Origin: a virus | Virus record (IMG/VR): IMGVR_UViG_3300025645_000475 | Location: 1-23,193 of that record | Direction: 5' to 3' (one strand) | DNA: 23,193 nt | Part shown: one piece after another, positions 1 through 2,547 of the stretch | Layout: each line of letters opens with the position of its first letter | Position numbering within the stretch: position 1 is the first letter of the stretch | The notes under the pieces: generated by a model | Databases searched by the model: none | The model's input: the letters and a program-made list of their open reading frames with translations, nothing else | Told to the model about the DNA's origin: nothing | Program-made: the position numbers and the translations under genes

Positions 1-146
1 GAAAGTATCTAGGCAAGCCATACAGCGAAAAATGTCCAAACGACTGTTGGGTGCAGGTCACAGGCAAGCCCGGTCGAAAAGAAAATCATTGGGGAAGAAA
101 CGCCTGTCGGGCAAAGTCAAACAGAATAAAGGGAGCAAACAAATGA
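1..146 (+). CDS. C-terminal end of an unidentified early protein (partial)
   Basis: This is the tail of a gene that begins before the window. It is read in the frame whose first full codon is base 3 (AAG) and ends at TGA 144-146. The 47 visible residues include KYLGKPYSEKCPNDCWVQV and end in a basic stretch (SNRIKGANK). The mix of Cys, Trp, Tyr and Gly looks like folded protein rather than random translation. The stop overlaps the ATG of the next gene as ATGA, the same coupling used by every later gene in this operon, which supports this frame. I do not recognise the family. The two cysteines (CPNDC) could bind metal, but too little is visible to say. Confidence 0.55.
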   Translation, partial: KYLGKPYSEKCPNDCWVQVTGKPGRKENHWGRNACRAKSNRIKGANK

Positions 147-862
147 GCGAACTACAAAAAGCAATGGCCGAGGTGAACGATCTTAATCGCACCCACGGCG
201 TCACGCAGCGCGGCGGCAAGAAATACACCGAGGTTTTTGTGCGCGTCGAAGCATTCCGCAAGGCATTCGGAACCGATCACGGGATCAATACCGAGATCCT
301 AACAGACGATGGCAAACGGGTTGTGGTCAAAGCATCGATCACCAACAGCGCCGGGATGGTTGTTGGCTCCGGCATGGCTGAAGAAATCAGGGGGCAGGGT
401 AACGTCAACAAGACAAGCGCCCTGGAGAACGCAGAGACAAGTGCCATAGGCCGAGCACTAGCTTCCATTGGCTTGCATGGTGGCACATATGCCAGCCTCA
501 ATGAGATCGATGCTGTACCGCGCAAAGCAGCAGCTCAGAAGCAGGCTCAATCTACGCAGCCGCCACCAGCACCACCCGCCGAAGATATGCTCACACTGAA
601 GAACCACATCGGAGAGGAGAAAGGATCGTATTATCCGCAAGAGTTTACAGCTAATCTTGTCAAGCTAATCGCAGTATATAACAAGCTGGAAGTCAAAGAT
701 GGAGTTGAAATCCCTCCACGCCAGCGCATGACAATGTTGCGTAAGCTGATCGAGCAAAACCAGCAGTCAATCGACAAGCTATCTGACGGGTTCAAGGAGG
801 AGATCGACAAGCGATACAAGAATTGCCTCAAGATTTTGGGCGCACAGTTAGGAAAAGAATGA
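143..862 (+). CDS. Probable phage single-strand annealing protein (ERF/Sak-like)
   Basis: The protein has 239 residues. The core at about residues 25-125 contains the stretch NKTSALENAETSAIGRALA followed by a Gly-rich SIGLHGG turn (about 90-114). This resembles the conserved motif of phage annealing proteins of the ERF/Sak type, which bind ssDNA and promote strand annealing in replication-coupled recombination. A Pro/Ala/Gln-rich linker (about 130-147) joins it to a charged helical C-terminal region (148-239), an N-core plus variable-tail layout common in these proteins. The start at 143 is chosen over an in-frame ATG at 32: it has an AGGGAG ribosome site 7 bases upstream, it overlaps the preceding stop as ATGA, and the longer N-terminus (very Lys/Arg-rich) would be an out-of-frame reading of the preceding gene. 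The family call rests on motif recognition only. Confidence 0.6.
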   Translation: MSELQKAMAEVNDLNRTHGVTQRGGKKYTEVFVRVEAFRKAFGTDHGINTEILTDDGKRVVVKASITNSAGMVVGSGMAEEIRGQGNVNKTSALENAETSAIGRALASIGLHGGTYASLNEIDAVPRKAAAQKQAQSTQPPPAPPAEDMLTLKNHIGEEKGSYYPQEFTANLVKLIAVYNKLEVKDGVEIPPRQRMTMLRKLIEQNQQSIDKLSDGFKEEIDKRYKNCLKILGAQLGKE

Positions 863-1047: not shown

Positions 1048-1490
1048 ACGGCAAAGATATAATCAAGTGCATCAAAGCAGCAGAGATGAAGCTGACAAAG
1101 AGAGAAACATCTGGTCTTATGTCGATACCCTACGCGACTGTTGTTGAGATCGCAGAAAAATACGGAATAAAATTTATCGATGGAAGGCAGAAGAGCGATG
1201 AACCAAGAAGGCAAGCAGGCATTGGCCCGAAGCCAACGTCAACTATCAATCATGATCGAGACCGCAAAGAAACAAAACCGGCACAATCTCCAGCAACAAC
1301 TAGAAAGCCTATTCGCATTAGGAGAGATACTTCAAAGGGCCATTACAAAAGAAAGCTAAAGAAAAGGTTTCGTGACATACTTCAGAGCGATCTGGATTAC
1401 GCCGTAAAGCATGAGTTAATCTACGCAGCCAAATGGCAGGATCATCAGCGCAGCATAAAGAAAAAAACTAAGGTAGGTGGAACGATATGA
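1044..1490 (+). CDS. HTH-like N-terminus with basic C-terminal extension, unknown function
   Basis: The protein has 148 residues and is translationally coupled (ATGA) to the gene before it, with GGAAGGAAAAAG as ribosome site. Residues 1-55 include LMSIPYATVVEIAEKYGIKF and then DGRQK, and resemble the HTH-like region of the 62-residue neighbour. From about residue 57 to 110 the sequence is Pro/Arg/Lys/Thr-rich and low in hydrophobics, possibly disordered. The last 40 residues (FRDILQSDLDYAVKHELIYA and on) again look folded. The stop overlaps the next ATG (ATGA), which supports the frame at the end. The middle part coincides with another plausible ORF in the +1 frame (1198-1359), so part of it may be a by-product of that gene. 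No function is assigned. Confidence 0.55.
   Translation: MNGKDIIKCIKAAEMKLTKRETSGLMSIPYATVVEIAEKYGIKFIDGRQKSDEPRRQAGIGPKPTSTINHDRDRKETKPAQSPATTRKPIRIRRDTSKGHYKRKLKKRFRDILQSDLDYAVKHELIYAAKWQDHQRSIKKKTKVGGTI
1198..1359 (+). CDS. Nested 53-residue helical ORF (tentative)
   Basis: This ORF lies entirely inside the preceding gene in the +1 frame. It starts at ATG 1198, with GGAAGG about 10 bases upstream, and ends at TAA 1357-1359. The product begins MNQEGKQALARSQRQLSIMI and continues as an amphipathic, Gln/Leu-rich chain (LQQQLESLFALGEILQRAI) that looks more protein-like than the Pro/Arg/Lys-rich reading of the same bases in the host frame. It could be a genuine overlapping gene encoding a small helical protein. 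It could also be chance, since the outer frame stays open throughout. No family is recognised. Confidence 0.35.
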   Translation: MNQEGKQALARSQRQLSIMIETAKKQNRHNLQQQLESLFALGEILQRAITKES

Positions 1491-1597
1491 GCGAAGAGGA
1501 AATGGAAAAAAAGATTGAGATTGCAGGCGCGGTCGGTGCTTTTGTAGGATTTGCCAGTGGAATTGGCGTAATGACCCTGGTAGCCATTATATTCTAG
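1487..1597 (+). CDS. Single-span membrane peptide, 36 residues
   Basis: The peptide begins MSEEEMEKKIEIAG, an acidic/basic N-terminus, followed by one hydrophobic segment from about residue 13 to the end (AVGAFVGFASGIGVMTLVAI and a final IF). It is therefore a probable single-pass inner-membrane peptide with several small-residue (Gly/Ala) positions typical of helix packing. It is the last gene of the rightward operon and is coupled by an ATGA overlap at 1487. Many phages carry such mini-membrane proteins in early operons, often of unknown function. It ends six bases before the foldable element between the two operons. Confidence 0.55.
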   Translation: MSEEEMEKKIEIAGAVGAFVGFASGIGVMTLVAIIF

Positions 1598-1602
1598 GTA
1601 AG

Positions 1603-1680
1603 ATCGTGCGGGTGGCGTGAGAATGATTGGCGCATTCGGAGCACGTTAACCAACAAACAAGGTTGGACCACCCGCTCGAT
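1603..1680. terminator. Three-way-junction element between converging operons (possible terminator)
   Basis: The gap between the stop codons of the two operons (1598-1684) is almost all one foldable element. The outer stem ATCGTGCGGGTGG (1603-1615) pairs with CCACCCGCTCGAT (1668-1680), 12 of 13 positions, with one T-T mismatch. Inside lie two perfect 5-bp hairpins with 7-base loops: GAATG/CATTC (1621-1625/1633-1637) and CCAAC/GTTGG (1650-1654/1662-1666). A further CGTG/CACG pairing (1616-1619/1642-1645) can extend the first hairpin. On the plus strand the structure is followed by ATTTTT (1681-1686), so it can act as a terminator for the early operon. On the minus strand no T-run follows. All the pairs just described are Watson-Crick, so either transcript can fold. 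The terminator role is inferred. Confidence 0.55.
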
Positions 1681-1684
1681 ATTT

Positions 1685-2206
1685 TTACACAGGTTTTGTC
1701 GCCATCTCAAGGGCCGTTTCAAGAGTTTCTTTGTTTCTTCGCGTCCATCCTTTGCCGAAAGTCTCAAAGGTTTTAAGCCGCTCATAAAACTTCTGCCGTG
1801 TATGATACACAGACTCAATAATCCGGTCTGGATCTAGGTCAGAAACGGCCTTTAAAGTCATAGGGCCAATCGCGCCATCCTGTTTGGCTCCAACGGCACG
1901 TTGAATAGCTTTGGCTGGGCGACCGCTGCCAGAGTTTACAGCCCAATCAAATGCGCACCAATCAACACCGCTTGGGAGATCATCACCGCGCACCTTATCC
2001 CAATAGTTTTTCTTGTAGATCGGAGCTACGTCATCAGGCGTCAGGTCGCGCATTTCTTGCTCAGTGCTTTCCCGGCCAATCCACTTATCATAAACAGCCT
2101 TGGTCACACCGAGATTAGTCATACCCCCTGGATCTTTCGGGTGATTTACGAAACCGCCTTCGTGCTTGAGAAGCATCCTTAAACAACGTCCAAAGTTCTC
2201 TTTCAT
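1685..2206 (-). CDS. Endolysin, glycoside hydrolase family 108 (N-acetylmuramidase)
   Basis: The protein has 173 residues and cuts the glycan strands of peptidoglycan at the end of infection. The N-terminal domain carries the family signature HEGGFVNHPKDPGGMTNLGV, with Glu16 as the expected catalytic acid and the DPGG-T-GVT motif at 25-35. The C-terminal part (from about residue 83, CAFDWAVNSGSGRPAKAI, then GAIGPMTLKAV) matches the predicted peptidoglycan-binding domain that follows GH108 in ZliS-type lysins. The start at 2206 is chosen because it overlaps the holin stop (ATGA). An in-frame ATG 63 bases earlier would lie in the holin gene and add a Cys-rich non-homologous leader. There is no signal peptide, so export depends on the holin just upstream. 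It is the last gene of the late operon. Confidence 0.9.
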   Translation of the reverse strand: MKENFGRCLRMLLKHEGGFVNHPKDPGGMTNLGVTKAVYDKWIGRESTEQEMRDLTPDDVAPIYKKNYWDKVRGDDLPSGVDWCAFDWAVNSGSGRPAKAIQRAVGAKQDGAIGPMTLKAVSDLDPDRIIESVYHTRQKFYERLKTFETFGKGWTRRNKETLETALEMATKPV

Positions 2207-2547
2207 TTCTTCAATCCTTTTACTGTACGGATTCCAAACGATGCAGCAATCGAAGCATACATTGCCCACGAAAACCAGCTTGGTGCAGCCTCTAAATTCT
2301 TAAAGCCCTGCTCCATGTACGGCTGTAAACCAGGTATGAAGCTCCCCAGCACGATTGCAATGAAGCATAGCGTCCAGGCTTCATCCTTCCAACTGTCACG
2401 ACTAGCCTCTATTGCAGCCTGCTCCCAGGATATTTCCCCGGTAGCGATTTTCATTTTCGTTTCGGCTTCCGCTTTCTTCACAGCAGTCTTGCCATCGATG
2501 TAACTGGTAGCAAGACCGCCAAGCGATCCTATGATCTGACCTATCAT
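2203..2547 (-). CDS. Holin, GTA-type 3TM family
   Basis: The protein has 114 residues. An N-terminal hydrophobic stretch (MIGQIIGSLGGLATSYI) is followed by a charged DGKTAVKKAEAETKMKIATG helix and an SWKDEAWTLCFIAIVLGSFI segment, then a third hydrophobic stretch near residues 92-106 (WFSWAMYASIAASFG). This order matches the three-TM holins found next to lysins in alphaproteobacterial phages and gene transfer agents. It forms inner-membrane holes that release the cytoplasmic endolysin encoded by the coupled downstream gene (4-base overlap). Its own start overlaps the stop of the EF-hand membrane protein upstream, again by ATGA. Fairly confident. Confidence 0.85.
   Translation of the reverse strand: MIGQIIGSLGGLATSYIDGKTAVKKAEAETKMKIATGEISWEQAAIEASRDSWKDEAWTLCFIAIVLGSFIPGLQPYMEQGFKNLEAAPSWFSWAMYASIAASFGIRTVKGLKK

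Follow-up and report, generated by a model that had tools for sequence, protein, structure and literature searches.

The element lying between two convergent genes in the window, that is, in the whole 23.2-kb stretch analysed (virus record IMGVR_UViG_3300025645_000475, 23,193 nucleotides), is a member of a family of branched phage RNA structures not catalogued before. This family is a new one of a known kind, the structured 3′-UTR RNAs, and not a tRNA relative. Its closing stem (P1) is conserved in pairing and not in sequence, its P2 arm is conserved and its P3 arm is variable. The best explanation, which we hold tentatively and at slightly less than an even chance, is that late (lysis) transcripts have these RNAs at their 3′ end and that P2 binds a specific partner.

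A three-way junction between convergent genes

The element is present as a single copy in the window, where, as the sequence-only reading had described, it fills the gap between converging genes. This gap (1598–1684, 87 nt) runs from stop codon to stop codon, and both flanking stop codons lie 10 nt or less from the element (Table 1). The same reading had proposed a 13-bp outer stem with one mismatch, two inner hairpins of 5 bp with 7-nt loops and a 4-bp extension. RNA folding of the plus strand gave exactly this structure (−30.8 kcal/mol, z −3.1), and only one of 200 shuffled sequences folded equally well. Twelve of the 13 outer pairs are formed at 1603–1680, the sole mismatch being T1607·T1676, and the loop of arm 2 (P3) occupies positions 1655–1661. 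Folding of the minus strand is almost as stable (−29.0 kcal/mol, z −2.8), with P1 and arm 2 present and arm 1 absent from its minimum-energy structure. Since homologues carry compensatory changes, the window element is far beyond chance.

Table 1. Features of the window element and of the two genes that flank it.
Feature	Position	Strand	Basis or remark
Whole element, three-way-junction RNA	1602..1681	− (probable RNA sense; 3′ UTR of late/lysis transcript)	Match to covariance model R1
P1 arm a, closing stem (GCGGGTGG)	1608..1615		Folding; P1 covaries between lineages
P1 arm b (CCACCCGC)	1668..1675		Folding and covariation
Outer extension of P1, arm a (ATCG)	1603..1606		Sequence and folding
Outer extension of P1, arm b (CGAT)	1677..1680		Followed on the plus strand by ATTTTTA
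P2a arm a (CGTG)	1616..1619		Folding and natural-sequence alignment; weak alone
P2a arm b (CACG)	1642..1645		Folding and natural-sequence alignment
P2b arm a (GAATG)	1621..1625		5-bp hairpin; AAAAG/CUUUU counterpart in L029, L032, L033 and L037
P2 apical loop (ATTGGCG)	1626..1632		Conserved as UGGCR (plus sense) or YGCCA (minus sense)
P2b arm b (CATTC)	1633..1637		Covariation; pattern-free members
P2 internal loop	1638..1641		Plus-sense family consensus GGUAG(C), minus-sense GCUACC
P3 arm a (CCAAC)	1650..1654		Folding and natural-sequence alignment
P3 arm b (GTTGG)	1662..1666		Folding and natural-sequence alignment
GH108 endolysin, last gene of late/lysis operon	1685..2269	−	Pfam PF05838, 1.9e-31; PHROG 315 endolysin
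36-codon ORF with hydrophobic stretch, last plus-strand ORF	1487..1597	+	No family match

Members in environmental viral contigs

Relatives of the endolysin, 80 in all, were taken from IMG/VR with no reference to the element, and a homologous element of 70–138 nt was found directly after the endolysin stop codon in approximately 25 of the nearest ones. Viral contigs were also scanned with the core 16-mer (minus sense GCTACCRAATGYGCCA) and with a second pattern for the hairpin. Many pattern matches were chance occurrences in coding sequence (Gly-Ala-Phe-Gly-Ser codons), and such matches were removed by demanding the closing stem. Together, pattern and covariance-model searches of metagenomic viral contigs yielded about 100 distinct copies with around 38 different closing-stem 7-mers, some of which are shifted readings of one stem, so that the truly independent stems are fewer.

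Covariance model R1, from which the window was left out, recovered the window element at 1681–1602 on the minus strand with 82.7 bits (E 2.7e-19), compared to 23.3 bits on the plus strand. The covariance model also found ten unused endolysin loci, five of which had been missed by the pattern scans (L029, L030, L032, L033 and L037), and matched 12 of 18 records from remote lineages, of which one (L245) was already represented in the model. A single core copy was present in 35 of 36 matched records. A dispersed, REP-like repeat, which would occur in many copies per genome, was rejected on these counts and on the single copy in the window.

Rfam 15 gave no match in the window, with no family reaching its gathering score; at E values up to 10 the only match was WsnRNA59, with 14.6 bits (gathering score 49), and the L005 element had no Rfam match up to the same value. 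DNA searches of the cultured-phage collection found no member, the matches in Bacteriophage 4A and Dunaliella virus SI2 being chance only upon inspection. At the corresponding gene ends, the cultured phages whose endolysins are most closely related (CRP-821, CRP-810, CRP-901, Ruegeria 45A6 and BPP-1) carry no element. Among 84,980 bacterial and archaeal genomes there were five pattern matches, all chance-like, and no convincing member. HTCC5015 (L203) reached an E value of 0.0066 in the locus set, fell below threshold in its whole genome and was discarded; none of 185 genomes of its class, which is unlikely to be the host group, carries the element. No account of such an element was found in the literature.

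After another endolysin (L048:4585–4680) there is a different GC-rich structure (TGCGGGCCACG ... CGTGGTTCGCA, then CGATC), perhaps a very remote member, which the covariance model did not report at E values up to 1.

Conserved pairing in P1 and conserved sequence in P2

The plus-sense consensus reads (ATCGT)-P1-J-P2a-GAATG-(N0-4)UGGCR-CAUUY-GGUAGC-P2a′-P3-P1′, relative to which the P2 internal loop of the window has one base deleted. P1 spans 6–14 bp across the family, and its sequence differs by lineage while pairing is kept inside each element. In a set of 31 core sequences, in which every combination of P1 and P2b 5′ arm was represented once, 98.4% of cells were paired, and covariation was 0.70 compared to 0.157 in shuffled and at most 0.12 in slid controls. 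Because P1 in this set was located by complementarity, a separate cross-lineage test matters: 16 of 38 lineages have CGT immediately 5′ of P1, and each of ten distinct P1 7-mers taken after it had its exact complement downstream in its own element, as against 0 of 90 cross-lineage combinations. Among 30 natural sequences that did not include the window, 13 pairs had double changes compared to 5.4 in shuffles. The covariation in related phages that the sequence-only reading had proposed to look for is thus present, stem changes being compensatory above both shuffled and slid controls.

Minimum-energy folds recovered P2b in only 19 of 45 lineages on the plus strand and in only 25 on the minus strand. 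The pattern-free members (L029, L030, L032, L033 and L037) have an AAAAG/CUUUU-type P2b rather than GAAUG/CAUUC. The third arm differs by type in its stem (CCAAC/GTTGG in the window, TAACC/GGTTA in the L237-type and TCATC/GATGA in the L004-type) and in its size, from a 5-bp hairpin in the window to a domain of at least 60 nt in the L004-type.

That the element might be tRNA-derived, as the sequence-only reading had also suggested, now appears extremely improbable. The core 16-mer TGGCGCATTCGGTAGC does resemble a D-arm, and its GGTAGC and GGTTAGC tails resemble D-loop length variants. However, neither ARAGORN nor Rfam, even at an E value of 10, detected a tRNA or tmRNA, there is no T-loop, and P1 is variable in length. 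The covarying P2b pairing (GAATG/CATTC, and AAAAG/CUUUU in L029–L037) is incompatible with a D-stem. A D-stem of the GCGC/GCGC kind is not conserved, its 3′ half reading GCAC, GCAA, ACGC or CTCG without matching changes, and it is P2b that covaries instead. Furthermore, the wobble pairs described below favour the opposite (minus) strand.

Within P2, UGGC, CATT and GG are nearly invariant while P1 drifts freely, which implies sequence-specific recognition; this invariance is partly a product of the search patterns, although the pattern-free members still keep the loop. It also bears on passive 3′-end protection, in which a stable junction would block 3′ exonucleases and stabilise late mRNA with no specific partner. 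The tight placement after stop codons and the GC-rich closing stem seen in nearly all lineages are consistent with such a role, whereas the near-invariant P2 bases next to a drifting P1 argue against it, and we regard it as improbable.

Wobble pairs and the sense of the RNA

Both strands fold, and folding energy alone is unable to fix the strand. The P1 sequences form a series from GUGGGUGGC/GCCACCCAC (L029) through GUGGGUGGC/GCCACUCAC (L032, L033 and L022) to GUGAGUGGC/GCCACUCAC (L037), the middle step of which is a G·U pair in the minus sense and an A·C opposition in the plus sense. Additional U·G pairs, at the inner end of P1 and at the outer pair of P3, fit the minus sense only; a counter-case is the L004-type P2b, GAATG/CATTT, which wobbles in the plus sense. 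On balance, the wobble counts suggest that the minus strand, the sense of the lysis operon, is probably that of the RNA. Since most wobble pairs favour this strand, late/lysis mRNA probably has the element as its 3′ end.

A site acting at the DNA level, as a folded single strand or cruciform for replication, packaging or recombination, would agree with the folding of both strands and with the single copy per record. Elements and flanking genes have also been reshuffled here: among L005, L008, L011 and L023, two element types and two types of flank just outside P1 occur in all four combinations, which indicates recombination between gene modules at the element site. Against a DNA-level site, the changes in P1 pass via the G·U of one strand and not evenly, and the position of the element tracks gene 3′ ends; we consider it very unlikely.

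Placement at gene 3′ ends

In 94 copies, which are not independent as about half are of the GTGGGTG and GCGGGTG types, 74 lay within 50 nt of an ORF stop codon. The stop of an ORF of 100 aa or more was found within 50 nt upstream in the minus sense for 61 of the 94 and in the plus sense for 34, compared to 6.5% and 7.3% of random positions, respectively. When counted by closing-stem 7-mer, 27 of 36 were flanked by a stop on one side or both. Endolysins of three different families (PHROG 315, 181 and 938) occur among the minus-sense neighbours, and some lineages are located near replication genes or between genes of the same direction. With compensatory changes in a three-way junction conserved at the gene 3′ ends of many phages, the element is, as first proposed, more than a simple terminator hairpin.

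The main rival to the 3′-UTR RNA reading is a bidirectional transcription barrier, in which the element would halt both converging transcription complexes, by intrinsic or factor-assisted means, and in which the conserved arm would be needed; we consider this possible, though on the unlikely side. Stop codons converge on the element from both sides, each within 50 nt, in 21 of the 94 copies as against 0.7% of control positions. On the plus strand of the window P1 is followed by ATTTTTA, and L038 has T-runs on both sides. Two GH108 endolysin relatives without the element (L068:852–900 and L070:4519–4565) have in the same place an ordinary GC hairpin with TTTTT, resembling a bidirectional terminator (GGCGGCCC TTGA GCCGCC TTTTT). 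However, only 7 (plus) or 9 (minus) of 38 lineages have a T-run of at least four after P1, a terminator scan does not pick up the window site, and the conserved sequences of the P2 loop and internal loop are unneeded for intrinsic termination. As most lineages are without a U-tract, canonical intrinsic termination is unlikely to be the function that the family has in common.

Several other placements were observed. In L113 (990–1328) and L229, the element follows a gene annotated by PHROGs as phosphofructokinase, with a same-direction gene about 200 nt further on, a non-convergent arrangement. Variants with a GCGGCGCGCC stem (L210, L123, L216 and L252) are situated at or inside long ORF calls, where the gene calls are uncertain; that of L123 adjoins a DNA polymerase gene.

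The window phage itself is distantly epsilon15/BPP-1-like, its 821-aa virion protein having around 30% identity to those of phiV10 and SPN1S. The nearest cultured relatives of its endolysin are from Roseobacter phages (approximately 66%), in which the element was absent where checked. The product of window positions 32–862 (+) resembles an ERF/Rad52-type single-strand annealing protein (SAIGRALASIGLHGGTYAS), and only PHROGs of unknown function match it.

Discussion

The leading readings of the element are two that the sequence-only reading had raised, a functional RNA and a processed 3′ end. We favour a stable 3′-UTR-derived RNA, or a protected 3′ end, that has a specific partner, because YGCCA and GCUACC are near-invariant beside a drifting P1, and these sequences point to the YGCCA loop and the GCUACC internal loop as a putative recognition arm. 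Past structure and position, we infer the steps as follows. The element would be transcribed together with the lysis operon, and the AU-rich spacer after the stop codon would then be cut. P1 would protect the RNA ends, so that a small stable RNA or a protected mRNA 3′ end may build up late in infection, and P2 would bind its partner, be it a host or phage protein or an RNA. Read on the plus strand, the window DNA would also resemble an intrinsic terminator serving the early operon that converges on the element.

A bolder possibility, for which we would give less than one chance in two by a clear distance, is that the family constitutes a trans-acting class of phage noncoding RNA, freed from the 3′ ends of late transcripts, whose arm captures one host or phage factor during lysis. 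If so, this class would be common to phages with unrelated lysis enzymes; to our knowledge, structured RNAs common to unrelated phage modules are uncommon. The element is well conserved and single copy, has no entry in Rfam 15, did not turn up among the cultured phages or bacterial genomes sampled, and is placed precisely at gene 3′ ends, often those of lysis operons. It therefore offers a concrete, testable RNA of about 70–125 nt, with a conserved putative recognition arm, in environmental phages.

Like the structured RNA families of Rfam 15, the element has a secondary structure conserved with covariation, and unlike them it brings no family to its gathering score. It shares with tRNA, in the window, a closing stem with two arms of 5 bp and 7 nt as well as a D-arm-like 16-mer, but it matches no tRNA model and its supported base pairing differs. 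As in bidirectional intrinsic (rho-independent) terminators, a GC-rich stem stands between convergent genes, with TTTTT after the plus-strand stem of the window; in contrast to these, it is a three-way junction with a sequence-conserved arm and, in most lineages, no U-tract. The general kind used here for comparison is that of the 3′-UTR-derived small RNAs of bacteria and phages. Whereas those are defined by a processed transcript and the element is known here from sequence, it is, like them, structured, present in single copy and located at the end of an operon, after an AU-rich spacer that follows the stop codon.
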